From positions 10,982,345-11,046,344 of the forward strand of contig CM073326.1 of NCBI GenBank assembly GCA_037043015.1: a DNA stretch of 64,000 nt, written 5' to 3'. Position 1 is the stretch's first letter. Each line of letters begins with the position of its first letter. The notes beneath the pieces were generated by a model that was not told the DNA's origin, did not search any database, and worked only from the letters and a program-made list of their open reading frames with translations. Position numbers and translations under genes: made by a program. This stretch comes from Bryum argenteum. Its lineage: Eukaryota; Streptophyta; Bryopsida; Bryales; Bryaceae. Of this stretch, positions 9,651-32,488 are shown piece after piece.

Positions 9651-10194
9651 CTTAACCCCTAAAACAGAGCCTTCAAAACCCCATGCGGGTTTTGACCAAT
9701 TAGGCAATTTTGCATCAAGGATTTTTACGAGTTACCCAACAACAAAAGTTTGTTAGGTAAAAAATCAGATTTTTTTTTTTTCTTTCTTTTTGTTTTTTTT
9801 CTTTTTGCAATGATTTTCTGCAGGTGGAGATATTTATTGGTGAAAACCATGAGTTGATGTCACAATCACAATGCAAAGGAAGGGGTGGTGCAGTCACATT
9901 GTGTCATGGAGGGCAGCAACATTTGCCATCAAAAAGGTAATTTGTCACTATTATTGAATGGAACGTCTGTGGCTCTTGTGGCTCTATTTTTTGTCCATTT
10001 TGATATTTTTATGACCCTGAGAGTGAGTGCCATTGCCACCCCACAGGTGTTAGGCACTCAAAATTCCCCACTATATTCATTAATTGTTCCAATCGGACAA
10101 GGTCTTTACAAAAATCCAACCTCAAAATTGTCACCAAATAATGCAACCCTCTCAAGATTTTAAGAATCTTCAGAGGTTGCAAGCATTGCGATAT

Positions 10195-10780
10195 GTAACC
10201 CCTAAACATCCTTCTTCTCTGCCGCTATGCACCCCCTGGGTGAAACAATTTTTATTTTATTATTTATTTATTTCTTAACCCCTAAAGGTCCAAGAAAGCG
10301 GAAATCGCTCTTTGGAATTTCCGCAGGGAGAAAATTCAGCCAACTTTGACCATTATAATCTCAGAATTGGAGAGAAATTAACCGTTCAAATTTGACATTC
10401 GAGAAAAGGGTCAAGTTAACTTCAAGATCCTATGGTTGGATCTTCTAATCAATGCTTAGATTGAGTTTCTTTGCACCTGAAGTAGAAGAAGGTTCTTTTT
10501 GATAATTTAAACAATTTTGTATCAAGGACCTTCAGGGGTTAAATTTTATTTTGAAACTTTCAAGTGCAAGATCTAGCACCCAAGACTATTTTAAATTATT
10601 GTTACAAAAATTAACCGTTGGATGTTTACGAGTTGAGAGATCGTAACATTCAAAGTTTGTCCCCCAAGTGTTTTTGGGCATTGTCAAGATTGTTTTTGAC
10701 ACTTTTGGAGGTTGCCCTTGTAAAATCGGTATACTTTTTGACTTGGGGCCCTTTGAAACTTAAGTAGTGATTTGGTTGTG
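10195..10780. mobile_element. TTAA-family element, long B2 type, interrupted by another element
   Basis: It begins TGTAACCCCTAAACATCC. It then matches the intact B2 element at 14703-15288 on both sides of a 268-bp insertion (10275-10542); shared blocks include ACCGTTGGATGTTTAC, TTTTTGACACTTTTGGAGG and TTGACTTGGGGCCCTTT. The right end is lost or fused to other repeat sequence. Confidence 0.6.
10275..10542. mobile_element. TTAA-flanked inverted-repeat element nested in a B2 element
   Basis: Ends are TTAACCCCTAAAGGTCC and GGACCTTCAGGGGTTAA, near-perfect inverted repeats bounded by TTAA. The interior matches the B1 family, with the block AACTTTGACCATTATAATCTC. It has no coding capacity. In the related uninterrupted B2 copy the equivalent site is a single TTAA at 14811-14814. 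Confidence 0.85.
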
Positions 10781-11713
10781 AGATCCGAGAGGACCGAATG
10801 GGGATCTGATTCAAACCCAAGTTAGTTTCATCCAAAACAGACTTTGGACGAAGAAGATATGGCTTTTCAAACTTTCAACATGTCGCCCTTGTGTTGAATT
10901 TTTGCCACACAAGACATTTCAGGGTAAAAGCCAACCCCTAACATTACAAGAGGTTTGCATAAACTTATGTTCGTTATAAGATATAAATTTAGTAACTCTC
11001 ATGAAGTTTTGCTCATAAAAAAGAGTGAAGATGCAAATGAAAAATAAATTGTTTTTCACTCAAATTGATGGACAATCATAAAAGAAAAACCTTATAATAC
11101 ACTTTGTAGTCCTTGAGATTTATGCATTAATAATCTTGGATCTTTAGGGTTTTAGTTTAGTCTTTTGGATATCAAAGAAAAGAAGTTCTTCTATAATCAT
11201 TGTTGGTTTGATTGTTAAACAAATTACACGTAGACAAATTATACGTAGGGAAATCACATGTTACTTATTTATTAGCTCATGCTTGGTAGTCATGGCCCTC
11301 ACTAACAAGGGCAATTACATTTACTCCGGACCACATAGGACCTTATTTTTCTTCCTAAAAAATTCCAACTTTAGCAAGTGGCAAGTATGGTAGTTGCAAA
11401 ACGTATGGGCCCCATTATTTTATGAAACAAGTGGTCCCAAAAATGTTATGTGATTGTGCATTGGTTTATGGAGCACATATGCTCCTGTGCTATTATTTCC
11501 TACTGATAAGCAGTGCCATTTATCAAACTTACTCCAAAGTTTGACTTTAATTGGCACCTCATTGATTGCACAATTGCCAGGAAAAAGTTCTAATTCATCA
11601 CTATTCTCTAATTGCCTATGGTAGGTGGCTCAAAACCCACATAGCACCCTAACCCGCTCATGGGCTAGTTCAAGTCAAGAGATACTTTATAGATTCTAGT
11701 TATAAATTTCAAT

Positions 11714-11749
<36 letters not shown>

Positions 11750-12827
11750 CGTAATTTGTCAAAATTTGAGATTTTGGGAAATTTTCAAAAAATTATTCTC
11801 AGAATCACAAATTCATAAAGACACCTAACCACCATTCACCTTTTTCAAATTCAAAATTTATCATTCCATAATATTTAGTTTGCCAATTTGCACATCTAAG
11901 GCAAATTGTGGCCCCCCCCCCCTATAGAAAACAAATTTAGCTTTCGCTTTATGAACATTGGGGAATTCTAAGTTTTTGCATGCGCCTACTCAACTAACTT
12001 ACCTACATGGAAAAGAATATGAGCAAAATATCTGGGGTAACAATCATCAACTTGCCCTTTGCACCATTGAGAACAAACATCATGTGCAAAACTATTGCTG
12101 CAACTTTGAACGTTACTATCTCTTAAATGATAAACATCCAACGCTCAATTTATCCTAAAATCAGGGTTTGGTACAAGATCTTACAGTTGGAAGTAAAAAA
12201 ATAAGTTTCAAAAAAAAAATTACATACTCCGGAGAGTCCATAAAGGTTGAAAATTGCAGTTTTGAGGTTTCAAGCTCCTAAAAACACAAGGAAATTCAGG
12301 GGTTAAGTACAACGAAGTACACAAATTTTAGTGCAAAACACAATCATGAACGAACTTACATCATTTGAAGCCCATGCTATTGGAACTTGCTCTTAAAACT
12401 TCCGGTACACAAACAAGTTGCATCAAGAACTATAATACCAAGTTGTTGCCATGTGGCCGCAAGAAGTGTGCCGACATGAATTCATGGCAATTTTACCACC
12501 TCGAGTACGTAGGTAGGAAGGTCGCGCCCTTGCTTCCACATGTATGTATGGAGATAGAACCAACATTGTTGTGGCCTCACCACATGAAACTCATGATCCA
12601 ACTTACAGGTACATGATCTCCAGTACACTACTACAAGCGGCAAAACTCAATATTAAAATTAAATTTGCCGAAAACAACAATAACATCTCCATTAGAGAAA
12701 AAAACTCTCATTACGGTATTAATATCCTCGCAAAGAAACCTCTAGTTAATGGACACAAAAAATGACGAGAATAAGCCACTAGAACTCTATAAGCATGTAA
12801 CATTGAAACATGAAACTATCGTTTAGC
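10781..12827. repeat. degenerate TTAA-family repeat sequence, no gene
   Basis: Segments match repeats elsewhere in the window: the block around 11980-12110 (CTACATGGAAAA followed by AACAATCATCAACTTGCCCTT) recurs near 18985-19045 and, more weakly, near 22210. A terminal AGGGGTTAAG lies near 12300-12307. Short open frames are not supported by any domain. Confidence 0.5.
11715..11744. repeat. homopolymer run of 30 T
   Basis: An uninterrupted T tract inside repeat-derived, gene-free sequence. Confidence 0.9.
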
Positions 12828-13068
12828 TTAACCCCTAACTTTCCTTGAAACGGGTTTTGCAGGAGAAAAACTCAGCCAACTTTGACCATTATAATCTCAC
12901 AAATGAAGAAGAATGAACCGTTCAAATTTGGTATGTGAGAAGATTGTCAAGTGAACTTTAGGATCGTACGGTTGGATCTTTTAAATAATGCTCAGATTGA
13001 GATTTTTTGAGCTTAATCTAAAGGAAGGTCAAATTTTGTGACTTAAACCGGCGGAAGTTTAGGGGTTA
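12828..13068. mobile_element. TTAA-flanked element, B1 family
   Basis: It starts TTAACCCCTAACTTTCCTTG and ends GTTTAGGGGTTAC (one base off TTAA), 241 bp. The interior matches the copies at 13929-14195, 26868-28067 and 29256-29524, including the GAACCGTTCAAATTTGGTAT and AAGGAAGGTCAAATTTTGTG blocks. It is noncoding. Confidence 0.8.
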
Positions 13069-13650
13069 CCTTAATTTACATGTACATCAGCTGTGATTGA
13101 TTTTTTAAGCCAATTAGTGTAGGCAAATACATACATGATTATGGAGGGCTAAGGTCACTTCCTTGTGACGGACAGGTGGGATGGCATCGGCATGGCACCT
13201 GTAGTATATTTGACGATTGTTCCCGAGCATCCGATATTTTGGTTCCCGAGTAAAAGTACGACCAGACATGCAGAGAACAAGGACATATTCACATCATAAT
13301 AAAAGAAATATTGGTCTTAGCCATGTCCACCTGGCCTACGAGATTGGTGCAGATCAGCTAAGTTGGGGCGGGACGACGGGTACCATGGCAATCACGCACC
13401 CCCGCACCTGTAATTCTATCTCGGCCCTTTAGAACCATTTTCATCGCACGACATCTGGACTCCCGTGGTTTTGGTCAAGATTAAACTGCCATTGCTCGGA
13501 CGGGACCGTTACACTATGTGGAGGTTTGGTTTATCGACAACGTGTCACTCTTCCCCCAAAATGTTATCCGGTGGGCGAACTCGTTCAAAGTGCCATAATT
13601 ATACAACAATATTATTGCACATAGAGTTTGTGAACTCGTATAGAGTTTCA

Positions 13651-13723
13651 TTGTCGTTATGTCCCATGGGCATATCATCAAAGGTATGTCAAACATGCAT
13701 TTTATTCACGCCAGACCTACATG

Positions 13724-13765
<42 letters not shown>
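13651..13765. repeat. short dispersed repeat copy 3 with a 40-nt T run
   Basis: The core GGGCATATCATCAAAGGTAT to TTATTCACGCCAGACC is followed directly by 40 T (13726-13765). Homologous to the copies at 7951 and 8495. A T-tailed retroposon and a plain T-tract expansion are both possible. Confidence 0.6.
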
Positions 13766-13834
13766 CATTGTCAGTTTATTGGTATGGAAGTGGTAAAATG
13801 CGGATTAGTAGCTCATCATCACCCTAAGAATCGT

Positions 13835-14409
13835 TTGACCCCTAAAGACCCTTGGTGCAAAATTACCTGAATTACAAAATTTGACCTTCCTTTAGATTAA
13901 GCTCAAAAAATCTCAATCTAAGCATTATTTAACCCCTAAATTTCCTTGTTGCAGAACGGTCTAAGTCACAAAATGTGATCTTCCTTCAGATTAAGCTAAA
14001 AAAATCTCATCTAAGCACTATTTAAAAGATTCAATCGTAAGATCTCAAAGTTCACTTGACATTCTTCTCACATACCAAATTTGAACCGTTCACTCTTCCT
14101 CATTTGTGAGATTTTAGTTGTCAAAGTTGACAGAGTTTTTCTCCTACGGGAACCTCCAAAACCCGTCTTGGGTTTTAAGGAAAGTTAGGGGTTAAAAGAT
14201 TCAACCGTAAGATCTCAAAGTTCACTTCACATTTTTCACACATACCAAATTTGGACCGTTCATTCTTCCTCATTTGTGAGATTATAATGGTCAAAGTACT
14301 AGATCCTACGATTAAATACTCAAAAGTTAAAAATATTGCACCTTGCAATAACCGAGGGATGTTTTGAGGCTTTCTGGCAGTTTTGAGGCCTTACGACATT
14401 AGGGGTTAA
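13835..14409. mobile_element. outer B1-like TTAA element containing a nested copy of its own family
   Basis: Its left end reads TTGACCCCTAAAGACCC (TTAA degraded to TTGA) and its right end ATTAGGGGTTAA. Sequences flanking the inner insertion (CTAAGCATTAT and AAGATTCAACCGTAAGATCTC) are contiguous in related copies. The segment right of about 14300 differs from standard B1, so the right boundary may be a fusion. Confidence 0.6.
13929..14195. mobile_element. TTAA-flanked element, B1 family, nested in a relative
   Basis: The element is 267 bp with ends TTAACCCCTAAATTTCC and GGAAAGTTAGGGGTTAA. It is inserted at a TTAA of the outer copy. The inner copy itself still carries the same site empty at 14022-14025 (CACTAT-TTAA-AAGATTCAA). 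Confidence 0.9.
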
Positions 14410-14607
14410 GAGGGACTAGTGCTCCCCATATTATTTTCTCTTTTTTAAGAACATCACTTAGTATACTAGCGATGAAATGTGGTGTAGCTACACTCATTTG
14501 TACGAGTGTGATTGATTTAGGAATTTGGGAAGTTATAGATTATAATAAGCCTTTGTCTCTCATTGTGGTAATGTCATTCTAAAAAACTAATCAGAACAAT
14601 ATTTTTA

Positions 14608-14686
14608 TTAACCCCTAAAGGCCCAAGCAAGCCAAAACGGCTTGATCTTCAATGTAATTTGGTAACCTTGGGCCTTTAGGGGTTAA
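14608..14686. mobile_element. 79-bp miniature TTAA element
   Basis: It has perfect 20-bp terminal inverted repeats, TTAACCCCTAAAGGCCCAAG at the left and its exact complement at the right. Only about 40 bp lie between them, so it is among the shortest elements of this group in the window. Confidence 0.85.
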
Positions 14687-14702
14687 TGATTCAAGTTTTT
14701 GA

Positions 14703-15288
14703 TTAACCCCTAAAGATCCTTGGGTGTTTTTGGGAGCTTAAAACCTCAAAACTCCAATTCTCTACCTCTATGCACTTCAAGGGGTGCGAAACAATTTTTT
14801 TATTCTTTTCTTAACTTCCAACCGTAAGATCTTGTACCTAAGCCAATTTTCAGTATCTGATATAAAAATTGACCGTTGGATGTTTACCATTTGAGAGATT
14901 ATAACATCCAAAGTTTGTCTACGAAGTTTTTTTGGGCATTGTTGAGATTATTTTTGACACTTTTGGAGGCTGCCCTTGTAAAATTGGTACACTTTTTGAC
15001 TTGGGGCCCTTTGGAACTTAAGTAGTGATTTGGTCATGAACATATTTCCAGAAAAAAAATTCAAAAAAATACTAAATTTAAACTGCCCCAGTTCGGCTCG
15101 CAAACCAAGAATTGTTGTAGAAGACTCAAAAATTGGAATTTGGCTTTGTAAATTTTACCACATACACTTTGCAGTATAGGGAGCACCCATTAAAAAATTT
15201 AGGCAAAAATATTACTTTTAACCTATTCATCTAAGCTGCCCAAAATAGCAAAAGCCCGATTTGGTCCTCTTGGATCTTTAGGGGTTAA
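14703..15288. mobile_element. TTAA-flanked element, B2 family, intact ends
   Basis: The element is 586 bp with ends TTAACCCCTAAAGATCC and GGATCTTTAGGGGTTAA, perfect 17-bp inverted repeats. Paralogues lie at 10195-10780 (interrupted) and 60182-61075. It has no coding capacity. Confidence 0.88.
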
Positions 15289-15398
15289 TGTTACAATAGC
15301 CTTGATTTCAGTTTTGAACTTTGAGAGTATATTTCTCCTAGAGTATAAGGATTGTGGAACACAAATCAATGGTCTTGTTGGAAAGGTATGAGAGAATA

Positions 15399-15760
15399 TC
15401 CCTTAAACACTTAAGGTGACCTGAGGGGTCATATTCCAACTCCTCTGTAGCTCTCAATGCACTCAACTTTTCACTTATATTTTGATGTCAAACTAGTCAC
15501 CTTCTTCTGATGCATTCAAAACCTGAAATTTTAGAATTCAAATCACAATTTGTATGAGTGATTTTGTGCTTTAAAAGGATTGTGGTAGGTAGGTTGGGGT
15601 TGTACATAACCTTGTAGGAGGTTGCAAGCTCATCATTGATTGGATCATTCATGATGCCCAAGTTCAAAAAGTGCACTATCCATGATGCCCAATTTCAAAA
15701 GATGTTGTGATCCAATTTTGGGCTGCCCGTTTCAGGCACCTTCGGTGTTTAAGGGTTAAT
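15399..15760. mobile_element. TTAA-type MITE, family A copy 1
   Basis: The left end CCCTTAAACACTTAAGG lacks its TTAA; the right end is GTGTTTAAGGGTTAA. The interior is the family-A body with GTAGCTCTCAATGCACTCAAC, GGTAGGTTGGGGTTGTAC and the CATGATGCCCAAGTTC repeat. About 360 bp. Confidence 0.8.
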
Positions 15761-16599
15761 CCCTGAACATCTTTGGGGTATTTTAGCCAAACCTCATTTT
15801 TTAAAAAGTGTCATAGATGAAGGTGAACATAAGCTAATTAGATCTCAACCATAAAAACTTCTTGTTGTAGATTTTGGGGACAATATAGCTCCAACAATAA
15901 AATAAGCATAAATAAATAACCTCAACCGTAAGTACAAAAGAACGTCAAGATAAAGTCAGTGATAGGAGTTTAGTTGTAAGGTGACCTGCTCGTAAATCGT
16001 CCAAATTCGAGAATCCTTGACTATTTTTGGCATGGTACTAATTTGCAAAGTACCAAGGAGGGTGTCCCTCAAGTATGAGAATTTCTTGATACACACACAA
16101 TTTTATAAAAGTAGATGAGTAGAAGCTAATGAAAACTGTACACCCTAGATTCCACCCAAAATCTAGCTTACAAGTACATTGGGAATCGTAGATGAAAAGA
16201 AGGAATCTTCTTCTTGGTTGAATAAGCTATTGTGGGATTTTTCGGTGTTGTGTGGGTTTCGAGCAAGTTACCTTATACCACATGTGACAATGATTCAAAC
16301 GGTGTTGGTACCTAATGGGGAAACATGCTGGTTTTCGCAAGCATTCCTTAGTTTGACCTTGTAACACACAAGAGCCGGTGAATAATCACAGCCACAGGAG
16401 TGCTTGGTGTAATAGCAGCCAATGGACACATAAACTTTACGAAGCGCCACACATGGGAACTGTCTTGGGGACAACAACAACAACGACAACATCAACATAT
16501 TTTCATGGGTATTAAAATTAAAATTTTTTTTAAAAAAGAAAAGAAAAAAAGCACTGAAGTGTTGACTGGGAGGGGGGATCGAGATGCTGCATCAAATAT

Positions 16600-16970
16600 T
16601 TAACCTTAAAAGGTCCTTCCACTCCTCAATGGGCAGCCCGAAATTGGATCTCAGCATCTTTTGCACTTGGGCAACATGAATAGTGCACTTTTTGAACTTG
16701 GGCAGCATGAATGAACCAATCAATGATGAGTTTGCAACCTCCTACAAGGTTTTGTGCAATCTCAACCTACCTACCACTATCCTTTCAAAGCACAAATCAC
16801 TCATACAAATTGCGATTTGAATTGTAGGATTTCACTTTGTAGATGCATCACAAAAAGGTGACCATAATGATATAAAAAAATAAGTGAAAAATTGAGAATC
16901 AAAAGAGCTAGAGGCAAGATTCTGTTGGAAAACAGCCGAGGGGCTGACAGGCGCCTGCAAGGGTTCATAA
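16600..16970. mobile_element. TTAA-type MITE, family A copy 2, degraded
   Basis: The body is clearly family A (GGGCAGCCCGAAATTGGATC, then AATGATGAGTTTGCAACCTC). Both ends are degraded: TTAACCTTAAAAGG at the left and AGGGTTCATAA at the right. Confidence 0.75.
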
Positions 16971-18400
16971 GACGAAGGAAGGGAATGGGGGAACGAGGAT
17001 GGTAAGGAAGGGTGGGTGACAGTATGGGGCATGGGGCGATGCAAGTTGGCAAAGGGAATGGAAGGAGAGGGGGAGGAGCGAAGAGCATCAAATGGCATGG
17101 GCATGGCTCTAACTCCTCCGTGGGGGGACCGGGACCGGGTCCGGGCCCGTTCAGCGGCCCCTCCCTCAAGGTGCCCTGTACACCTCTCGTTTGCAAGTTT
17201 CTCTTTGCCTCCACTCATCACCACACTTCCAACATGTGAATAGAAGAATCTTGTCTTTTTTACTGTTTCAACATGCACGGCTTGTTATCAAGATGCCATC
17301 ATCAATCATAGTTTTTATTCTTTAGGAGCTTCTATTCATCAAATCAAGTGTTTGCATTGTTTGCGAGCTCGTAGATTCTTCTTCTCCCGCACATGCATTT
17401 ATTATAAGGCATGCATCATCATCGTTGAAATATGCTTGGAATATATGAGTTTTTTTGTTGTTACAACTTGTTTCCCTATTGGATGGTTGCTTGCTTGCTT
17501 GCTCAATTTCAATATAAGGGAGAATGCAACGGAGGTCTAGTGTGATGATAGCAGTCTGTTTTTTTTTTTTGTAAGAGATTTGATTTTTGAGTCAAAGTGA
17601 AGGATTGAAAATTGCTTGTTTGTAGATAAAAACACAAATTTGCTACCATCGCTACAACTCTACCAAGGGCAGCTGAGATTGTCGAATTAGTTCAAAGGAA
17701 CAAGGACTACGGATGGTTATTTATAGATTCCACTGCACAAGAGTTGTTAATTAGTGTTATAAACGGCAAACCGTAACACTAAATGTCACATGTCACCATA
17801 GTGGTACCACTGTAATTGTCAAACCATAACACTAAATGTGAGAGCATGCACACTTTTCTTGCAAGTGGAAGAATTTATTGAAAGTGGTGCAATTGGTGGC
17901 TTGAAGAAAAAGACAAGTTGCAAACGTACATTTTTTTTTACTCTAGCAATTGTAATGACCCCGCGAGATTCTCCCATGTGGTGCCTACGTGCTCATGAGA
18001 TGACTACTGTAGTTTTCATGAGAATAACATACATACATACATACTGCAAGAATAAAGAATATAGTGTGGTCTCTAATATAGTGTGTATATAAGGGATACT
18101 ACCTGGAAAAAGAGGGTCATGGCTGGGCACAGATCCCAATGTGCAAGAAGAAGACGAAGAATCAGTTATATTAGTTTCTCATGTACTGTAACAAAGTCAA
18201 GGAAGACTATTAATAGTCAAATACCGGTGTTTTTCATGTTTTTTGGTTCATTGTGCAAAAAGCAGCCTACTCCGCAATTCAAAAGGCTCGTGGTGCCATT
18301 AACCCACCAATCGGCCTCAATATAAAGTGAGTAATAGTTCTCTACGAGCAAGAAGAAAACTTCTTCAAAATGGAAACGTCCGTAGTGTCGGAAAAGCGAC
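16971..18400. other. intergenic region with a GC-rich purine/pyrimidine patch
   Basis: A patch near 17010-17170 is purine-rich and then GC-rich (GGGACCGGGACCGGGTCCGG). Overlapping frames stay open on both strands but encode only Gly/Pro low complexity. Nothing else is identifiable. Confidence 0.4.
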
Positions 18401-20542: not shown

Positions 20543-20912
20543 TTAACCCTTAAACGTCAGACTATACGGATTTGGGCAGCCTAGTATTGGATCACAACAT
20601 CTTTTGAACTTGGGCATCATGAATAGTGCACTTTTTGAACTTGGGCATCATGAATGGACCAATCAATGATGAGCTTGCAACCTCCTACAAGGTTATGTAC
20701 AACCCCAACTTACCTACCACAATCCTTTCAAAGTACAAAATCGCTCATACAAATTGTGATTTGAATTCTAAAATTTCACTTTTTGAATGCATCACAAGAA
20801 GGTGACCAATTTGACATCAAAATAAAAGTGAAAAGTTGAGTACATTGAGAGCTACATAGGAGATTCTGTTGGAATATGATCCCTCGGGTCACCGCAGGCG
20901 TTTAAGGGTTAA
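20543..20912. mobile_element. TTAA-type MITE, family A copy 3
   Basis: The element is 370 bp with ends TTAACCCTTAAACGTC and GGCGTTTAAGGGTTAA, carrying the full family-A body. It is inserted in long-family repeat sequence that continues on the right as TTTGGAACCTAATCC. Confidence 0.9.
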
Positions 20913-21213
20913 TTTGGAACCTAATCCAAGTGATTTCATCCAAAACACGCTCTAGATGAAGAATTTATGGCTCTTCAAAGTTGTTGCTTATCATCCAAAA
21001 TGTTGTTTTTCTACAATCAACACGTTTAGAGGTTAAAGGTACAAAACTGGCTTGAATTGGCACCTATTCACTATTCAAAATTTTACTGCAACAAATAATA
21101 TTGACATGATTCATGTTTTATTATATTGTTATTTTCATACTTCTTTCTAGAAGGTTAATATGCATGAAGGTTCAAAAAGCATTTCGAGCCTTTAAAATTT
21201 TGCATGAACATAC

Positions 21214-22184
21214 TTAACCCTTAAACGCCCACGATGTTGAGAAACGACATTTTGGATGTACATCAGAAACTTTGAAGAGCCATATCTTCTTCATCCAAGG
21301 TCCGTTTTGGATGAAATCACTTGGGTTAGGTTCCAAATCAGGTCTAGTTTGTGTTGCAAGTCCATACAATAAAGTATGAATTAATGGAATGCACTTTAGT
21401 GAAGACAACTCTTGTTTTTGGGTTTCCAAGCATAAGGCATGTATTACCATTGCAAGCCAATTATGCGAAATTGAAAATAGTTTTTCATGATTTTTTTTTC
21501 ATGGTCATGATCTTAAGCTGATTCTTAACAACTTTGTAGTGAGAAGTTTTTTGATCCAAATGATTTTGCTATTGGATTTGCAATGATGTTTTGTCAACAG
21601 AAAAAGTGAGAAAATGGATGATATTTGAGGAGCTATATCTCCCTCATCCACCGTTGGATTTCAACTTAATTTTTTGGGATGGCCTCCAATTAGAGTCTAG
21701 TCTAAGTGGTAGAAACCTTAACAAGATCGAAGATGTTTTGAAGATAAGGCATGAAATTGAATGCAAAGGGTCTAGTTTTGGACTATTTTTCCTTTGTAAA
21801 ATGTTCGGTAGTGTTTATCATTGCATGGCTTTTATTTGAGCCAAGAAATTTTTTTGATGAATTTTTGTTGGGTAGAGGACTTATTAAGATGAAGGTGAAC
21901 ATCTTTCTAGTTGGTGATTTTTTCATTGCAATAGGTATATTGGTAGCATTTCCACCTCAAAGTGAAAATGATGAAATTTTGCAGTTTGTTTTTGATATTA
22001 ATATGTTATGATCTCCCGATTTATAAGGCCTCATGACTCAAATTTTGGTCCACATGATCTTCGATAAGTCTATTACAAGTTTGTACAGTTGAGATCTTGA
22101 TAGCTTCTCTTGATTTTCATCTATGACGATTTCTATGGAACTGTGCTTTCCTGCTAAAAATAGGCTCGGGCGTTTAGGGGTTAA
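21214..22184. mobile_element. TTAA-flanked long element (family L)
   Basis: The element is 971 bp with ends TTAACCCTTAAACGCCC and GGGCGTTTAGGGGTTAA. The ends match family A but the interior is different: it includes TGAAGAGCCATATCTTCTTC and TTGGATTTCAACTTAATTTT. The interior is homologous to 43025-44343 and, loosely, to about 48050-48700. Two frames of 82-86 codons (21591-21839 and 21751-22011) overlap; neither shows a motif I recognise. It carries an empty TTAA (21718-21721) at the place where the 43-kb relative has a family-A insertion. Confidence 0.8.
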
Positions 22185-24186
22185 ATTAGTAGTTTACATA
22201 GAAAATTTATGACCAAAATGTTTGGGGGTAGCAATCTTCAAATCTCCCTTTGCACCATGGAGACAATGCCTACCAAGCAATGTCCAAAAACTCTTGGATG
22301 TTTGGATGTTGTTGGAAAGATTGGATGTTATGATCTTGAAAAAGATAAACATCCAATGGTCAAATTTTTATGAGCGGCCTAAAATAGGCTTCGATACAAA
22401 ATCGTACAACTATAATTAATTTGGTGTACACTCCTAGGAGTGCATAGAGGTTGAAAATCGCACTTATAAGGTTTCAAGCTTCCAACATACAAGGAGATGT
22501 AGAGATTAACTGCATGTATTTTTACCTATAAAAATCTCCATTCCACTTCCTTTAGTTCATTATTATTATATTTAAAACCAAATCAAAATAATATTAGATA
22601 AACTGACTTTTTTTTACATAATTACTCTCGACAATACAACTGAGGGCCATGTCACAGGGGAGGCAAGGGAGAGCAAGGGCAACCTGCAATTGGTTGATGC
22701 CGGACCGGATTACTACACGGAAGGTCGTTTTAGCAAAGGCAAGATGACCGAGCATGAAAGTGCACCTCATGAAACTACCAAGAATTCGGGATTGAAAATT
22801 CTTACCTCCACCCTCCGTTGTGCTACCTCTAGCACATCAATAGTGACCTCTTATAGAATCAGAGCAGTGCCATGTATGTGGCTAACCACCTCCACACAAG
22901 CTGACCTGGTTCAGAGCCTGCCCAACCTGCAGTGTCAGCCAGAGAGTCGGGAGCCTTGTTTGGCGTGTGAGGAACCCGAGCTTACACACTATCCTTGCAA
23001 CCCGGTGAAGAGGGTTGAGGTCTCCTAAAATTTAGCACACCATAACTCAAAGCTATCCCGTGCCTTCACTCACATTCTAGTGTCCCCATTAACCAATAGG
23101 AGAGGTACACGTGGCAAAAATTTTATTGGCATAAACTAATTTCTATTATGATTACTTATGTACGTGCCCTGCCTTCCGGCGTAGGGTGGGGTATCGATGC
23201 CTGCCCAAGCGAGCTTGCGACGCAGCCATGCTCTGAGGGAAGTCGTAGGAATCCCCGGACCCGGTGATCATTATCTCTTGCCTCCCGTGTGGCTTCCACC
23301 TTAGTGTAAAATTACTGACACTGAAACAATCCCAGGGTAAAGAAGGTGAGTAAAATGTTTACAGCGGCAGGCAAGGGGAGCCGCCATTCGAGTCCCCATT
23401 CTAGGCACCTGACAATGTACAGCACAAATCATCAACATTCAATTATAGAAGAGGGCAGGCAGGCCTCGATCGGAGTCATCGGACTGAGAAGGTCCAAGTT
23501 TGGTGCAGAGGCTCAGACACTTGCAGTGTACTCAGAAGTTGCAGAATGGCTGTCAGCAACGATCTCCGTTTTCTTTATCTTTTGGACACAAATAAAGCCG
23601 GTTGCCGCAGCACCGGTAAAGTGCAGTCTAAAGATCTTCTTCAGAAGCAAGCGCTTGCAGAGGTTAGAAAAGCATATAGTAAAAAGTCCAGCCCAGCGCC
23701 AGCGCCAGCAAGGAAGTTAGAATATATCATGTGTCAGTGGTTGCTGCCCGATTTATATCATTCGTTTTGCGAGATTAGCATGCCGATCGATCGAGGCCTC
23801 CACTTCTCTTCCCCACTTTCTATTTCTATTCTCTCCTTTGCTTTGATTCAATCTGATTCACGTAACATTCACATGATCACCTACGTTTTGCTATGCTTAG
23901 TGGTTTTACAAATTAAGCTCCTCCCATGTGACGCGTTCGTCATCCTCCATCACCTCTATTTTGTACAATCCTTCCTTTCAGTTTGGGTCTCTTTCTTTAA
24001 TGTAAGGGCCGCTTCACACTATGGCTGTTCAAGTCAAGAGGCCGTGTGGGATTGAGAGCCCGAACTTCATTGAGAAATTTACTGAAAATAGCCAATAAAA
24101 TTGGAGTATAATTGGAACATAGTGTGAAATCTCCAAAGGCCAAGTCCAAAGTCCAAACCCATACCATTTGTTTGGCTTCAATGTAC
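22185..24186. other. repeat remnant, then a GC-richer anonymous segment
   Basis: About 22200-22510 is long-family repeat. From about 22620 to 23720 the base composition is clearly more GC-rich than the surroundings. Frames of 112, 124 and 169 codons occur at 22690-23028, 23346-23720 and 23546-24055, but overlap in different frames without a recognised domain. It could be retroelement or captured gene debris; I cannot assign it. Confidence 0.4.
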
Positions 24187-24555
24187 TTAACCCTTAAACG
24201 TCTGAGCGGCCTCGAGGGGGCCGATTCCAACAGAATCTTCTGTGTAGCACTCAATGTACTCAACTTTTCACTTATATTTTGATGTCAAACTGGTCATCTT
24301 CTTCTGATGCATTCAAAAAGTGAAATTTTAGAATTCAAATAACAATTTGTATGAGTGATTTTGTGCTTCGAAAGGATTGTGGTAGGTAGGTTGGGGTTGT
24401 ACAATACTTGTAGGAGGTTGCAAGCTCATCATTGATTGGATCATTCATGATGCCCAAGTTCAAAAAGTGCACTATTCATGGTTCCCAAGTCCAAAAGATG
24501 TTGTGATCCAAAACTGGGCTGCCCAAATCCGTATAGCCTGACGTTTAAGGGTTAA
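24187..24555. mobile_element. TTAA-type MITE, family A copy 4
   Basis: The element is 369 bp with ends TTAACCCTTAAACGTC and GACGTTTAAGGGTTAA and a complete body, in opposite orientation to copy 3. Confidence 0.9.
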
Positions 24556-25371
24556 TGAGTTCATCCAAATTCTGAAATTTTCCACTTACGTTTTCTGACG
24601 GCGATTCTAGAAGGGAGCACATTCTTGTGTTTCCTTTGATTTTTATGGTCATGAAGTATGTCGCTGTGGGCGGGCATTTTGACATTAGAGTTTTTCAACA
24701 AAATGTCAAAATGATGATGACGGGAATTTTTCATTACACAAGGATGGAGGGTGAATTATCAAAGGAGATGCTGGCATTATCAAAGATACGGTGGTTTTTT
24801 TGACGAGACGCTTTTGAGGTCATTTTTAGATAGTGATTTTCGGAAATGCATGAGGGTGAGTAAGCTATAGAAGTCTATAGCTTATCAATATAACAATCAA
24901 ATTGATAATCTACCCTTTGTAGCAGCTTATTAATTTTTCTCAATTTTTTTTATTATCAAATGTGTGCTAGTTTCTGCCATCTTTTCGAAGATATCAAATT
25001 GAACAATTGTAAAAGTGATGCTTACCTTTTGATGTTGGTATTGTGATGGTTTTCATTATTTGTGCATCGTCATTTTCTTTATGTTGAATTGGTTTGAGAT
25101 CTTTATTTGTGGTAGTAGCTGACACATGCTTCATCACTTGTCCGGCTTGGTAATACCACTAATCTAGAGCCTCATAGAATTTGCCCTCTTGTCAGTTGTT
25201 ACCAGAAATTTCCATTGTCGAGATGGTCTTGAATTTCTTATGGCATACCACAACCGTGCGCTTGAATTTTTGTAGCATGACAACCATCCTAGCTTGAAGC
25301 TTTACCCATGTATCAATTCCTACAACCAAAAGAGCCAATTATTTTGAAAGGTGAGTAGAAGTATCATAGAA
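24556..25371. other. AT-rich intergenic sequence, nothing identifiable
   Basis: No gene, inverted-repeat ends or RNA were found. Short frames only. Confidence 0.4.
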
Positions 25372-25590
25372 GAAAAAAATTAAAAAATTAAAAAATTAAA
25401 AAATTAAAAAATTAAAAAATTAAAAAATTAAAAAATTAAAAAATTAAAAAATTAAAAAATTAAAAAATTAAAAAATTAAAAAATTAAAAAATTAAAAAAT
25501 TAAAAAATTAAAAAATTAAAAAATTAAAAAATTAAAAAATTAAAAAATTAAAAAATTAAAAAATTAAAAAATTAAAAAATTAAAAAATTA
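25372..25590. repeat. microsatellite array of the 8-mer AAAAAATT, about 27 copies
   Basis: The array is nearly perfect for over 200 bp. It ends in a short palindromic T8/A9 tract (25588-25612). It is entirely A and T. Confidence 0.95.
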
Positions 25591-25612
25591 ATTTTTTTTA
25601 AAAAAAAAATTA

Positions 25613-26867
25613 AAATAAAATTGCAGCACATGCATGGATCCTCAAAGAAGGACTATGATTGCTACAAATGGAAGAGAAATGTGGATTGCATCTCCAATGA
25701 GAAGTAGGTGGGGAATGGATATCTCCTCATTGTATTAGAGGAGACTAGAGTTCAAATCTCTACGACCGCATTTTCTTGCAAGTGGCTTTGAGGAAAAAGG
25801 GGGCCTGGGGGCCAAACGCGCGGTGCAAAAGCCTTTAGGCCCCAAATTGGCACCAATCCTCATCACAATTATTATCTTAATTTTGATAAATAGGGCAAAA
25901 AACTTGTACTTTTTTTATGTCGTTCCTTACAAATTTGTGCTCTATCTCCCCTTTGAGGGCAATGAGTTGTAGTACCTCCAAATCTTCCCACTTTTGATTT
26001 GCCACTTCTTTTTCTCCTTCAACGTTTACTCCCGTTTTTGGAGCCTTCGGAGTCTTTTGCTTGGGAGGAGCTCTCCTTTTGAAAGACCCTACGATCTCAC
26101 AATCTACTTCTCCTTAAACAACCCTCTCTTCTATCCTTTGAACATCCCTTGAGCTTCTAATCTTCTCATCATAATTTGAGCTAAGTAGGCCTAAAATGCT
26201 CCATAAGAATTTGGGGCCAAAAATTTTATATTCTCCACTAAATGTGGTTGGCTACAATAGTAAGGGCTTTGAGAAAATGTTCTAGCTCTCCTATGCCTTA
26301 AAGTGATTGAGAGAACCAGAGTGTGAGGAAGAAGGAGCATTCCACTTTATTCTTTGTCCAAGGCATTTTTTCGATCTAACTGCCAAGATCTTGTAAAAGT
26401 TTTGGATTTTTTTATTAATAAAATCTAACTTCCTCTAGACCAAAGTTTAGATCTCGCAAAATGCACACTCAAACAAATGTCAAGAGGCCGTCGCCTTGGT
26501 CAAACTATTTGATCTCCTCTATAATTATTTATAAATTCTCGAAGTGGGACTTGTAGGTTTTCCTAAACTAGCGCATACTAAATCTTCATAGTGAAGACAA
26601 TGAAAAGCAACCTTTTCATTGTACCTTTTGTGAAATTCACCCAATGAGCCATTATTAGTATTTGACTAGCCTATAAAATGTTACCTTTTCCTTGAAGAAA
26701 ATTGGGTTGTGATTGGTTGAAAGTGAGATTCTTAGAATGTATTGTTAGGAAAGTGATATGTTTCGATTAAACCGTGTAAACCGACCTTTACTTCGACGAC
26801 CCGTAATGTTAAGTTACATTACATAAGTCCTTGCAATAAGAAGTTGAATAACAACATGAGATAAAGC
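25613..26867. other. intergenic region, nothing identifiable
   Basis: Mixed AT-rich sequence without a supportable exon or inverted-repeat ends. It lies between the 8-mer array and the next TTAA element. Confidence 0.35.
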
Positions 26868-28067
26868 TTAACCCCTAACTTCCCTTAACCCTTTCATGAC
26901 CACTCCTATTTTGGAAGTCGAGGTTTTTTGAGGTGTCTGGATATATTTTGGAGTGCATCAAACAAATGAAGGGTCAAAATTAAGATCCGACCGTATAAAT
27001 GTGTAGTGAACTTCATATATATGCTAGTGGCCAAACATGGGTCACATCTACCGTATGAACTAGAGTATTATGATGTTCCAAGTCAAGTGTAGTACATAGC
27101 GTATTCATGACCTCGAAGCTTTTTACTAGAATTAGAGACCAGAATATCCAGATTTGGGCAAAATACATGGGGTCAATATTGTAAAGAGTTTGAAGATCTA
27201 TCCAACAACACCATGAGCGTGCATTTCGAGCATTTATGAAACTGAAATTGCGAAAAGAGACCAAGAACCCAGTTCCTTGTATATGGTAGCGTACGAGAAA
27301 TACATGGGATATCGTAGCAAATATGGCCAGATTGAAAAATCAAACATGGTCACATTCATCAAACGCCGAGCCTTGACGTAGAATCAGTGTGCAAACAACA
27401 TGTGGTTGATTCTTTTTGGGGAGGATTTTAGATTGTACAAACGTATACGCTTTGATAGACGGTGTTGGGTTGCCAAAAGAAATCAACTCTTCTTTTGTCA
27501 ACGGAGCCAATTGAGTAGTACCCCCCATGTTCCCCTGTTCCCAAGGGACCCTTAGAATTGGTGTCATGTGTCCTCGACAGCCGTATTTCCTGAATCTTTC
27601 TCACTTCTTTCCAGACTAGCAACCATATCTCATACTCATCACCATGTATAGACAACTCTACCAGGCGGAGTACGATTCCAAATGCATCGTTGTTTTGTGT
27701 AGTAGATCCAACACACACTCCTCTTCCGGCGTTGTTCTCTAACATTTTGCTATTTCTACACAAATTCTACTCAATCATGGAATAACCACACTTCAGCGAC
27801 CAGATTTGGTTGATTGGTCATGAAAGGGTTAAAACCCGAAATTGGTTTTGGAGGAGAAAAACTCAGCTAACTTTGACCATTATAATTTCACAAATGAGGA
27901 AGAATGAACGGTTCAAATTTGGTATGTGAGAAGAGTGTCAAGTGAGCTTTGAGATCTTACGGTTGAATCTTTCAAATAATGCTTAGATTGAGATTTTTGA
28001 GCTTAATCTAAAGGAAGGTCAAATTTTGTGACTTAGACCGTTTTGCAACAAGGAAATTGAGAGGTAA
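26868..28067. mobile_element. B1-family TTAA element split by a 948-bp insertion
   Basis: It starts TTAACCCCTAACTTCCC. It resumes after the insertion as AACCCGAAATTGGTTTTGGAGG, and ends GGAAATTGAGAGGTAA (degraded terminus). The two halves together reproduce the B1 body seen at 12828 and 13929. Confidence 0.8.
26885..27832. mobile_element. 948-bp TTAA-flanked element with CCCTTTCATGACCA ends
   Basis: Ends are TTAACCCTTTCATGACCA and its inverted complement TGGTCATGAAAGGGTTAA, each bounded by TTAA. It sits at a TTAA inside a B1 element; the uninterrupted B1 copy has TCC-TTAA-AACCC at that spot (14171-14179, minus strand). The interior is unrelated to families A, B or L. On the minus strand one frame is open at 27763-27428. 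A second, shifted frame is open at about 27567-27013 with a single stop at 27340. No transposase motif is recognisable. Confidence 0.9.
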
Positions 28068-28514
28068 TTAATACTAATGTCATTTTACAAGAAGAGGTGA
28101 ATGTACTAGTGATGATGGGTTTCTGACAAATCTCAATTATGATAGTCTAGTTGGTATGTAGATTTGTTGGAACCCCAAAAAAGCAGCTATGTATAGTAAA
28201 AGAGAGAACATGGAGGCGAGTGCACAACACCACTTCGCCATATGCTGTAAATTGTCCGCTTTGAGTTGTTCCCTACCACTATTAATGCACAGCATTTAAT
28301 GGAGTTTTCTTTCTTTTTTGATATTTTGATCCAATGCAATGCAATTGATGGAGTTTAGTCAGCATGAGAGATTCTGATTCTGCTATTTCTAGGGCAACCT
28401 GGAGGTTCACATTAAGCTTCGATGCTAAAATGAGCAACCTCCGCGCAGGATTTTATTTTATTGCCTCCAAACAAACTATGAGAAAATGAAAATGGCTTCA
28501 GTGTAACTTAACCC
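28068..28514. other. intergenic spacer, nothing identifiable
   Basis: AT-rich sequence between TTAA elements; no gene or repeat boundary is seen. Confidence 0.35.
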
Positions 28515-28860
28515 TTAACCCTTAAACGCCCAAGGGGTCTCAAACGGGCAGCCCAGAATTGGATCACGGCATCTTTTGGACTTGGGCATCATGAATAGTG
28601 CACTTTTTGAACTTGGGCACCATGAATGATCCAATCAATGATGAGCTTGCAACCTCCTACAAGGTTATGTACAACCCCAACCTACCTACCATAACCCTTT
28701 CAAAGCACATAATCACTCATACAAATTGTGATTTGAATTCTAAAATTTCACTTTTTGAATGCATCAGAAGAAGGTGACCAGTTTGACATTAAAATATGAG
28801 TGAAAAGTTGAGTACATTGAGAGCTACAGAGGAGATTCTGTTGGAAATGGCCCCCTCGGG
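28515..28860. mobile_element. TTAA-type MITE, family A copy 5a, right end missing
   Basis: The left end is an extended TTAACCC-TTAACCC-TTAAACG (counting from 28508). The body is complete up to CCCCTCGGG, where copy 5b begins in opposite orientation. Confidence 0.85.
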
Positions 28861-29223
28861 TTAAACGCCCAAGCAAGCCCGAGGGGCTTGATTCCAACAG
28901 AATCTGCTCTGTAGCTCTCACTGTAATCAACTTTTCACTCATATTTTGATGTCAAAGTGGTCACCCTCTTCTGATGCATTGAAAAAGTGAGATTTTAGAA
29001 TTCAAATCACAATTTGTATGAGTGATTATGTGCTTTGAAAGGATTATGGTAGGCAGGTTGGGGTGGTACATAACCTTGTAGGAGGTTGCAAGCTCATCAT
29101 TGATTGGTTCATTCACAATGCCCAAGTTCAAAAAGTGCACTATTCATGATGCCCAAGTCCAAAAGATGTTGTGATCCAATTTTGGGCTGCCCATTTCAGA
29201 CCCCAAGGGCGTTTAAGGGTTAA
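28861..29223. mobile_element. TTAA-type MITE, family A copy 5b, inverted relative to 5a
   Basis: It begins at the inner TTAA of the terminus (TTAAACGCCC, missing TTAACCC). It ends GGGCGTTTAAGGGTTAA. With 5a it makes an inverted repeat of about 709 bp. Confidence 0.85.
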
Positions 29224-29248
29224 TTCTAGACAAGGCAATGCGGTGATA

Positions 29249-29880
29249 TTAACCCTTAACTCCTAAATTTCCTTGTTGCAAAACGGTCCAAGTTGCAAAA
29301 TTTGACCTTTCTTTAGATTAAGTTTCAAAAAATCTCAATCTAAGCATTATTTTCAAAATTCAACCGTAAGATCTCACAGTTCACTTGACGTTATTCTCAC
29401 ATTCCAGATTTGAACCGTTCATTCTTTCTCGTTTGTGAGATTATAATAGTCAAAGTTGGTTGAGTTTTTCTTCTGCAGGAACCTCTACAAGCCGTTTCGG
29501 GTTTTAAGGAAAGTTAGGGGTTAAACGCCCATGGGTCTGAAACGGGCGGCCATCACAACATTTTTTGTACTCGGGCATCATGTATAGTGCACTTTTGAAA
29601 CTTGGGCATTTTGAATGAACTTGATGAGCTTGCAACCTCTTACCAAGTTATGTTCAACCCCAACCTACCTACAGTACCAAAGCAATCTTTTCAAAGCACA
29701 CAATCACTTTTACAAATTGTGATTTGAATTGTATGGTTTCACTTTTTGAATCCATGTGAAGAAGGTGACTGGCCATTTTGACATGAAAATATAGGTGGAA
29801 TGTTGAGTACAATGAGAGCAATGGAGCAAATTCTGTTAGGAAAAAAGCCCCTTGGGCTTGCTTGGGCATTTAAGGGTTAA
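29249..29880. mobile_element. TTAA-type MITE, family A copy 6, split by a B1 element within its terminus
   Basis: The first seven bases TTAACCC (29249-29255) are separated from TTAAACGCCC (29521 onward) by a B1 element. The right end is GGGCATTTAAGGGTTAA. The body is diverged but complete. Confidence 0.85.
29256..29524. mobile_element. TTAA-flanked element, B1 family, inserted in a family-A terminus
   Basis: The element is 269 bp with ends TTAACTCCTAAATTTCC and GGAAAGTTAGGGGTTAA. It occupies the inner TTAA of the family-A terminal repeat TTAACCCTTAAACG. Confidence 0.9.
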
Positions 29881-30350
29881 GAGTTTTACATTACACTAGT
29901 ACAGAGGTGGTCCTTCCATACATGAGAACTATACCCACAATATATGCAAGGCTTGCGATGCTCCACCTCTATGGGTATATACATATGACTATCCAAAACA
30001 AAGTGTAAGTTAAAACCCCCTTTTCGAACCCTAAACTTGGGATGTGGTAAGTCGCTTAGAAATTGCTCAAATTTCAAATTGGCAAGCTCATTGTGAAGTT
30101 GCAGAGGGAATTATATGCAGGGATTGAACGAGTTGGAATCAATATTGAATTGGATATGACGTTTGGAAGGGGATGTACCCAATACCACTTAATGTAGGAT
30201 GTACACCATCATTACACTGAGATTTGAAGTTGGAAGCCATAATGTACCTCCTGCTGCTTGGATACGTCTAGTGAGTGGTTTGTGGTAGTGTGTGAGTTTT
30301 CAGGCACCTCCTACTACCATATAATTTCATAGTTTAGAGAGCAATTTAAT

Positions 30351-30720
30351 TTAACCCTTAAACGCCCATGGGGTCTGCAACGGGCAGCCCAAAATTGGAT
30401 CACAGCATCTTTTGGACTTGGGCATCATGAATAGTGCACTTTTTGAACTTGGGCATCATGAATAGGCCAATCAATGATGAGCTTGCAACCTCCTACAAGG
30501 TTATGTACCACCCCAACCTACCTACCACAATCCTTTCAAAGCACAAAATCATTCATACAAATTGTGATTTGAATTGTGAAATTTCACTTTTTGAATGCAT
30601 CAGAAGAAGGTGACCAGTTTGACATCAAAATATGAGTGAAATGTTGAGTACAGTGAGAGCTACAGGGAAGATTCTGTTGGAATCATGCCCCTCGGGCTTG
30701 CTTGGGCGTTTAAGGGTTAA
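30351..30720. mobile_element. TTAA-type MITE, family A copy 7, reference-quality copy
   Basis: The element is 370 bp with perfect 17-bp inverted ends, TTAACCCTTAAACGCCC and GGGCGTTTAAGGGTTAA. The body contains an internal direct repeat (CTTGGGCATCATGAATAG, twice). It is noncoding. Confidence 0.93.
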
Positions 30721-31114
30721 GGGATATTAATTTATGGTATTTCTATGCTACATTCTTACTCGAGTATAATCTCATGAATTCCATTCCATGGGTGTTGTCC
30801 AACACTATTTACTACAACTACTATTTTCCATACATGCTGAGGAGCATTTTTTTAAGTCAACCTGAGCACCCTCGTGTGTTGATGAAGTGAGGAAGTTCAT
30901 TAATGTACATAAGTTCATAATGGTTCGCATGCTTTGCTCTTAATCCAAACTCTGCAGTCAAACTCAATCTATGAAAACACTATCTTTATTTTTTACTTCT
31001 TTCTTGAACCCAAAGGTTTTATTTTATATTATATTATAATTTTATTTTTACCCAAAGGTGTGCAGTGAGCTGTGTTCTCATTTATATATATATATATATA
31101 ATAGAATTGGATGA

Positions 31115-31225
31115 TCCTTCCTACCCACCAACTTACCAACCTACCAACATACAAACCTACCAACCTACTAACATACAAACATACGAACCTACCAACCTAC
31201 GAACTTACCAACCTACGAACTTACC
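31115..31225. repeat. degenerate CCAACCTA-type tandem repeat
   Basis: Repeated units of CCAACCTA/CCAACATA/CAAACCTA span about 110 bp, preceded by a (TA)n run. One frame reads through as a Thr/Pro-rich peptide, a product of the repeat rather than a gene. Confidence 0.85.
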
Positions 31226-31723
31226 AACCTATCTTCTTTTATGTATGAAAATTTAAAATAATATTGTTTTTTTTTAAAATTTTTTTTAAAAAAAAAGAGA
31301 GAAAAAAAACGCGAGCATATATAAAAATAGTTAACATAACACTGTTTGAGAAAATAGTAGACACGGGATACTTTTTTGAAAGTACCATATGAAGAGCTTC
31401 TCCGTCAAGACGACGGGGACCTTCCTAGTAAGTAAATAAATGAAAATAAAAATCACTTGGTGAGGCTTTGAAGCGTGTGCTATTATTTCACATCTATTTA
31501 ATCTCATCAATAAAATAACACATATTTCATGTTTGGATAAGCGTAACAAGATTCTAACATGCGGAGGACCAAACACATTTCTAAAATTAACACACCGATC
31601 ACCAAACAACTACACCTCCCAACATCTCTACCTCTTTTGTGTGCACATGAGGTGTGTGAAATGAGTTATGTACTATGTTATAGCATCATGTTTATGGAGT
31701 AAGTGTAATTTACAACTATGACC

Positions 31724-32123
31724 TTAACCCTTAAACGCCCAGCTATACGGATTTGGGCAGCCCAGTATTGGATCACAACATCTTTTGCACTTGGGCATCA
31801 TGAATAGTGCACTTTTTGAACTTGGGCATCATGAATAGTGCACTTTTTGAACTTGGGCATCTTGAATGATCCAATCAATGATGAGCTTGCAACCTCCTAC
31901 TAGTATTGTACAACCCCAACCTACCTACCACAATCCTTTCAAAGCACAAAATCACTCATACAAATTGTGATTTGAATTCTAAAATTTCACTTTTTGAATG
32001 CATCAAAAGAAGGTGACCAGTTTGACATCAAAATATAACTGAAAAGTTGAGCACATTGAAAACTACAGAGGAGATTCTGTTGGGATATGACCCCTCGGGT
32101 CACCTTAGGCGTTTAAGGGTTAA
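31724..32123. mobile_element. TTAA-type MITE, family A copy 8a, with an expanded internal repeat
   Basis: The element is 400 bp. Ends are TTAACCCTTAAACGCCC and GGCGTTTAAGGGTTAA. The extra 30 bp is one more copy of the GAATAGTGCACTTTTTGAAC / TTGGGCATCAT unit. Its right TTAA is also the left TTAA of copy 8b. Confidence 0.92.
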
Positions 32124-32488
32124 CCCTTAAACGTCAGGCTATACGGATTTGGGCAGCCCAGTATTGGATTACAGCATCTTTTGGACTCGGGCATCATGAA
32201 TAGTGCACTTTTTGAACTTGGGCATCTTGAATGATCCAATCAATGATGAGCTTGCAACCTCCTACAAGTATTGTACAACCCCAACCTACCTACCACAATC
32301 CTTTCAAAGCACAAAATCACTCATACAAATTGTGATTTGAATTCTAAAATTTCACTTTTTGAATGCATCAGAAGAAGGTGACCAGTTTGACATCAAAATA
32401 AAAGTAACAAGTTGAGTACATTGAGAGCTACAAAGAAGATTCTGTTGGAATATGACCCCTCGGGTCACCTTAGACGTTTAAGGGTTAA
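32120..32488. mobile_element. TTAA-type MITE, family A copy 8b, abutting 8a
   Basis: The element is 369 bp with ends TTAACCCTTAAACGTC and GACGTTTAAGGGTTAA. It lies in the same orientation as 8a and shares a single TTAA with it. Confidence 0.92.

Follow-up and report, generated by a model that had tools for sequence, protein, structure and literature searches.

The locus analysed here raises the question of which transposons gave rise to a crowd of short inverted-repeat elements in a plant genome. The window, a stretch of 64,000 nucleotides (C6:10982345-11046344), holds several families of such elements, which we call A, B1, B2, B3, M and X1. The original prediction, made for the interval 9651-32488, assigned them to piggyBac, a group best known from animals, and named Sola3 as the other candidate. 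We conclude that the elements are almost certainly cut-and-paste transposons of the piggyBac superfamily living in a moss. The short repeats of the window are mostly non-coding passengers of these transposons, with thousands of copies in the genome. The host was recognised as a moss because a gene for the large subunit of ADP-glucose pyrophosphorylase, near 2179-4043 on the minus strand, matches Ceratodon purpureus at 97% when its exons are read into a 432-residue query; the value for Physcomitrium patens was 91%, and the host is probably nearer to Ceratodon.

We counted the termini in the 258.8-Mb assembly (25 contigs) as exact matches, so that the counts are lower bounds wherever copies have decayed. 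The terminus TTAACCCTTAAACG was found at 5,945 places (2,991 + 2,954) and its reversed control at 4 (1 + 3), while TTAACCCCTAA was found at 17,696 places (8,758 + 8,938) and its control at 317 (160 + 157). The M-type terminus TTAACCCTTTCATGACCA occurred at 269 ends (138 + 131) and its control at none. Within 24 kb of the window (about 9,000-33,000), 38 termini were at most one mismatch away from TTAACCCCTAA or TTAACCCTTAA, and five mononucleotide shuffles of the region gave 0-2. The large plant population that had been proposed is borne out, with a moss as the host and termini counted in thousands genome-wide.

A tblastn search of the window itself (E <= 1e-3), with five transposases of the moss and one N-terminal domain as queries, showed no transposase fragment, as had been noticed before. 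In the genome, a profile search with PF13843 (DDE_Tnp_1_7) gave 776 first-look candidates, of which 116 were scored, and all 116 exceeded the cut-off. Each end of the long copies is a short terminal inverted repeat (TIR) that starts with CCC and reads CCCTTAAACG or CCCCTAAA; the coding elements are 4.9-5.7 kb long and end in TTAA-CCCTTAAACG or TTAA-CCCCTAAA. The element L039 (201-5399, 5.2 kb) has TTAACCCTTAAACG at both ends and, between them on its minus strand, an open reading frame of 897 residues. A second copy, L040 (201-5150), is 97.75% identical to L039 over 4.5 kb, with the same ends and different outer flanks, and the 5,049 bp between the A ends of L044 contain a PF13843 match. B ends (CCCCTAAA) enclose 5,701 bp with an open frame of 831 codons in L049 (144-5844), and 4,940 bp with a transposase frame broken by stops in L046 (2249-7188). 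Thus, long copies with the same termini, which the original prediction had proposed to search with this profile, do contain a transposase gene, both inside A ends (L039, L040, L044) and inside B ends (L046, L049). It had also named the outcome that would speak against piggyBac, long copies encoding another superfamily; on inspection, those with A ends and with B ends of the L046/L049 type carry DDE_Tnp_1_7. We also observed a short tandem repeat that separates the transposase frame from the element end closest to it (583-818 with a 21-bp step in L039; 385-468 with a step of about 33 bp in L040), which differs between these otherwise near-identical copies.

DDE_Tnp_1_7 is the single Pfam domain of the L039 transposase, and the match spans the full profile (E 1.4e-82). 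In a search of the PDB, this protein matched piggyBac of Trichoplusia ni (6x67, E 2e-29) and piggyBat (9c0f, E 7.7e-24), and no other entry at E <= 0.001. Its residues D572, D651, D764 and D767 (numbered in P0001, the L039 protein) align to the aspartates of 6x67, which we take to be catalytic. In a motif pattern scan of 31 transposase cores, 21 showed all three motifs and the other 10 were short of one. The T. ni element (6x67/6x68) and those of the moss share the DDE_Tnp_1_7 core, the aligned aspartates and the TTAA target; T. ni piggyBac termini also start with CCC, as the moss elements do. The moss element is about twice as long as that of T. ni (given as 2,472 bp), its L039 frame has 897 residues compared with 594, it carries an extra N-terminal helical domain, and the sequence match reaches just 105 bits. 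The alignment with piggyBat takes in the core and the cysteine-rich C-terminus and reaches residue 895 of the 897 in L039, whereas the 831-codon frame of L049 shows no such C-terminal domain.

Could these elements instead belong to Sola3 or another superfamily that uses TTAA, the piggyBac genes being mere unrelated neighbours? Sola3 also duplicates TTAA, and M, B2 and X1 are without a proven piggyBac partner. However, the transposase lies within the ends in question, the homology between two copies, L049 and L050, stops at those ends, and L039 and L040 agree at their ends while their outer flanks differ. This explanation is contradicted for family A and for B elements of the L046/L049 type, and, with piggyBac as the transposase profile searched in the genome, we regard it as very improbable. 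The piggyBac assignment is supported by the transposase inside matching ends and by the target duplication.

The nature of that duplication was read from an insertion within the window, where M sits in a copy of B2. Excising M together with one TTAA restores a gapless B2 at the junction; the uninterrupted B2 elements at 13929 and 29256 have a single TTAA at the M site, and two TTAAs flank M. Among family A ends of the form CCCTTAAACGCC, TTAA precedes 3,775 of 4,219. Eight copies of the L049 type were compared: six are flanked by TTAA at each end, one (L050) is flanked by TTAT at each end, and one (C3) has no right end in the fetched stretch. The family A ends with an alternative flank include 35 with TTAT and 43 with ATAA, and from these two lists, which are all that the pairing covers, 13 facing pairs at element length were matched by eye. 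A facing TTAT or ATAA pair means that the same 4-mer stands on both sides of the element. One such pair (C6:5515089-5519938, 4,850 bp) encloses a transposase match and an N-terminal match, and no discordant facing pair within 6 kb was seen in the complete TTAT and ATAA lists.

TTAA might also belong to the element itself or be a conserved sequence of its ends, and a fixed end would equally give TTAA before 3,775 of the 4,219 CCCTTAAACGCC ends. Such an end does not explain one TTAA in the intact B2 and two around the inserted M, nor the matched TTAT or ATAA flanks of L050 and of 13 A elements, and we give this alternative practically no weight. We conclude that TTAA is a true target duplication, because removal of M restores an intact B2 and because 13 A elements have matched TTAT or ATAA flanks. 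The TTAA duplication originally proposed therefore holds for the majority of insertions, with the empty site of M in its support, and fails for a small minority that duplicated TTAT or ATAA.

The elements of the window are as follows (MITE marks a putative miniature inverted-repeat transposable element).
10275..10542, plus strand: B1 MITE, 268 bp, with L046/L049-like ends; exact TTAA on each side
13929..14195, minus strand: B2 MITE, 267 bp, uninterrupted; exact TTAA on each side; empty site for M
14608..14686, plus strand: 79-bp element with TTAACCCCTAAAGGCCCAAG at either boundary; exact TTAA on each side
14703..15288, plus strand: B3, 586 bp, non-coding; exact TTAA on each side; ends match L046 and L049
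15441..15759, minus strand: family A copy with one decayed end, from alignment to A3
20543..20912, plus strand: family A MITE, 370 bp; exact TTAA on each side
21214..22184, plus strand: X1, 971 bp, first nucleotides A-like; exact TTAA on each side; placed by its termini
24187..24555, minus strand: family A MITE, 369 bp; exact TTAA on each side
26868..28065, plus strand: B2 copy split by M, from comparison with uninterrupted B2
26885..27832, plus strand: M, 948 bp, inside B2 at TTAA; exact TTAA on each side; its removal restores B2
28515..28860, plus strand: family A copy, right end truncated, 92.8% identical to A3 over 348 columns; duplicated TTAACCC at 28508-28515
28861..29223, minus strand: family A copy, 93.4% identical to A3; end at 28861 without TTAACCC
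29256..29524, minus strand: B2 MITE, uninterrupted, left end TTAACTCC; exact TTAA on each side; second empty site for M
29521..29880, plus strand: family A copy, 80% identical to A3; left end without CCCTTAA
30351..30720, plus strand: family A MITE A3, 370 bp; exact TTAA on each side; both ends match the 5.2-kb L039 beyond the TIR
31724..32123, plus strand: family A MITE, 400 bp; exact TTAA on each side, one TTAA being common to the next copy
32120..32488, plus strand: family A MITE, 369 bp; exact TTAA on each side
43522..43891, minus strand: family A MITE A6, 370 bp, outside the interval first described
16627-16930 and 12828-13069: decayed or truncated copies or ends, with TTAA at one side or neither

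From this list, the shared termini reported for the interval are present on 12 elements with exact TTAA on each side. The count of at least 20 elements stands when decayed copies are included, as there are these 12 elements and about ten decayed or truncated copies or single ends. TTAA at both outer edges was confirmed for the 12 elements with matching termini; the ten or so others have it at one side or neither. The 11 copies given for family A were recovered over the whole window at a threshold of at least 80% identity to A3 (A3 counted), ten inside the interval 9651-32488 and one outside at 43522-43891.

Several features of these edges were noted in passing. Family A ends have an inner TTAA seven bases in (TTAA-CCC-TTAAACG; window 28508-28521, 28857-28870 and 29518-29530), and the extra TTAACCC at 28508 or its loss at 28861 and 29521 suggests either that the two TTAAs slip against each other or that the inner one is used. 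A single TTAA is common to two elements at 32120-32123, where A stands beside A, and in L044 (493-496), where a short B-type copy stands beside the coding A element, as if one element had inserted into the target duplication at its neighbour's edge. An 80-bp element at C8:17682443-17682522, with family A ends and matched TTAT flanks, consists of barely more than two inverted repeats and resembles the 79-bp B element of the window.

Next, we compared 24 ends of the short elements with those of the coding elements, excluding the first 14 nt (TTAA plus 10 nt) and using 300 mononucleotide shuffles per end. Both ends of A3 and of A6 match the two differing ends of L039, and both ends of B3 match those of L046 and L049, with 0/300 shuffles as high at each end. 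The values were 1/300 and 3/300 for the B1 ends, 0/300 (left) and 53/300 (right) for the 79-bp element, and 5-56/300 for the remaining A copies. Similarity was not clearly above the shuffles for B2 (18/300 and 18/300), X1 (86/300 and 46/300) and M (28/300 and 99/300). A3, A6 and B3 thus share both ends with a coding element and lack coding sequence, as expected of a MITE. Because most A copies are about 90% alike, we take family A as a whole, together with B3, to be non-coding derivatives of the coding elements, whereas B2, X1 and M are tentatively assigned from their termini and target site alone.

A conserved segment of about 90-110 residues lies upstream of the transposase, on the same strand, at most of the loci examined. 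Matches to it were taken from lists in which 150 places were scored out of 440 and out of 326 candidates, and they were compared with the loci by hand. Among the matches listed, 21 of the 30 top transposase loci have one in the same orientation and at most 6 kb upstream; a profile added L027, and L026 and L034 have weak matches. None was found at six loci (L011, L015, L017, L021, L029 and L035) among the matches listed or with the profile. The Ka/Ks ratio (nonsynonymous to synonymous substitution rates) of the segment was 0.11-0.32 in 8 of 11 pairs, with Ks near saturation in most of the eight and beyond estimate in the other three. An AlphaFold2 model from ten sequences gave a helical domain (mean predicted local distance difference test score 81.6; predicted template modelling score 0.76). 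No known family was matched in sequence or structure searches; run against the PDB at E <= 5, the profile of this domain picked up neither piggyBac nor piggyBat chains.

We read this segment as the probable N-terminal domain of the transposase. In L065, L066 and L067 it forms one uninterrupted frame of 1,056-1,290 codons with the catalytic domain. In four elements of the A lineage (L039, L040, L042 and L044) it stops at a GT whose position is shared; the site is canonical in L039, L040 and L042 (GTGAGT or GTGAGC) and reads GTGATT in L044. L046 and L012 permit an in-frame phase-0 GT-AG intron that would join it to the transposase. A second, separate gene of the element would be the alternative. 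In L046 and L012, stops in tandem close the segment just ahead of an ATG that lies in a different frame, and this frame can cross a GT-AG intron into the transposase. The segment was also found in none of the 151 fetched transposase homologues, many of them short or partial (272 records were searched: these 151, 120 glucose-1-phosphate adenylyltransferases and P0001). In view of the single frames, the common GT and the possible in-frame introns, we consider a separate gene unlikely and prefer the N-terminal domain; that it would bind DNA or a partner is our guess.

To place the moss transposases, we built a tree of 70 rows, comprising 24 moss sequences (31 less 7 near-copies) and 46 homologues out of 151. 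Of the 46, 33 had no named host and 13 were named animals; none was named as from fungi, protists or red algae. A branch with support 100/99 separates the moss rows and 20 host-unnamed rows from all 13 animals, and the moss transposases divide into several old lineages. The host-unnamed rows may come from plants. Because of the sampling, the midpoint root and the very long branches of three animal rows, an old plant clade of piggyBac is suggested by this tree and no more.

The age of the insertions was judged from near-identical copies. The 5.7-kb copies L049 and L050 lie on different contigs; over 5,695 aligned columns they show 2 mismatches and 6 gap bases, and the alignment covers the element and stops at its ends. 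So few mismatches indicate recent transposition. In addition, 58 of the 150 places scored carry the 91-residue N-terminal segment of L049 at 100% identity. The copies thus point to a very recent burst of transposition. In the mechanism that we propose, the transposase, produced by working coding copies and in some lineages presumably after splicing of an N-terminal exon, would bind the element ends, excise the element at TTAA and paste it into another TTAA, which would become duplicated; a small minority of insertions would have used TTAT. The short non-coding copies of the window, having kept both ends, would move in trans through these transposases, possibly to the present day.

Several points weigh against this account. 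No coding partners were found for M, B2 and X1. The long stretches L047 and L048, both bounded by M ends and tried as partners of M, turned out to hold nested repeats (L047 a copy of B1, L048 pieces resembling X1), and their frames do not exceed 246 codons. (L065 was also rejected: for the right end of M 36/1,000 shuffles were as high, but for the left end 817/1,000.) Of the first 30 transposase loci retrieved, 17 lack a TTAACC(C/T) end in the 1.5 kb or so outward on both sides, and therefore the ends of most lineages are unmapped. The frequencies of TTAT (35) and ATAA (43) ends are not clearly above those of other one-base variants (TAAA, TCAA and TGAA together, 100), so that for TTAT preference the pairing is informative and the frequencies are not. 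In L049 a canonical splice yields a different start, which makes in-frame splicing in the B lineage uncertain.

Among known systems, Daphnia Pokey/mPok of the piggyBac superfamily offers a close comparison, with duplications of TTAA (88.13%), TTAT (5.93%), ATAA (5.09%) and CTAA (0.85%) (PMC3849761). Both there and in the moss, coding elements occur with MITEs, and TTAA is the majority target with TTAT and ATAA in the minority; Pokey, however, is described as a crustacean element with a site in ribosomal DNA (PMC3849761). The moss Physcomitrium has PpTc1/PpTc2, reported as likewise belonging to a transposon group unreported in plants and amplified in a moss, although these are Tc1-like and so of another superfamily (PMC4054914).

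For plants, a repeat table of the fern Ceratopteris labels 1,230 fragments (122 kb) as PiggyBac, a label for which the accompanying passage describes no coding element (PMC6890710). One plant review, with reference to a general classification, includes PiggyBac in its class II superfamilies (PMC10794571), and a land-plant review counts six TIR superfamilies in plants, the word piggyBac being apparently unused (PMC9033089). A MITE survey of 207 plant genomes, four bryophytes included, has five superfamilies and one special group, and the term TTAA is absent from it (PMC12550479). Insect and ciliate papers mention, in general terms, piggyBac-like elements as known from plants (PMC10140906, PMC12732532, PMC8086355), and the beetle paper among them gives red algae as the plant example (PMC12732532). 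PMC10619864 was set aside as irrelevant, since the one displayed of its two occurrences reads 'piggybacking'.

A description of piggyBac in a moss was not found in the literature searched, from which most subscription journals were missing. As PiggyBac has already been named for plants, we see here a known superfamily in a host group for which no description was found, with a conserved N-terminal domain that we matched to no family. The wider proposal is that mosses, and perhaps plants more broadly, have their own old and diversified piggyBac clade with a new N-terminal helical domain and thousands of MITEs, still jumping and either overlooked or mislabelled by annotation with five MITE superfamilies; we judge its chances to be evenly balanced. 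Few transposons are used as much as piggyBac for delivering genes, and the plant record that we found in print is thin. A dense, recently active moss population would extend the natural host range, would make available a transposase adapted to plants, possibly with a new binding domain, and would account for a MITE class without a category in plant surveys.

Two minor observations concern the distribution of the elements and the composition of the window. Contig C1, the largest (44.09 Mb, 17.0% of bases), is strongly depleted of these elements: it holds 67 of the 3,775 TTAACCCTTAAACGCC ends, where ~643 would be expected from its length, 4 of the 269 M ends, 5 of the 116 scored transposase places and none of the 58 perfect matches to the N-terminal segment of L049. 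This contig may be poor in genes, or it may be a sex chromosome. In the window, positions 25380-25590 form a long A+T simple-repeat array.

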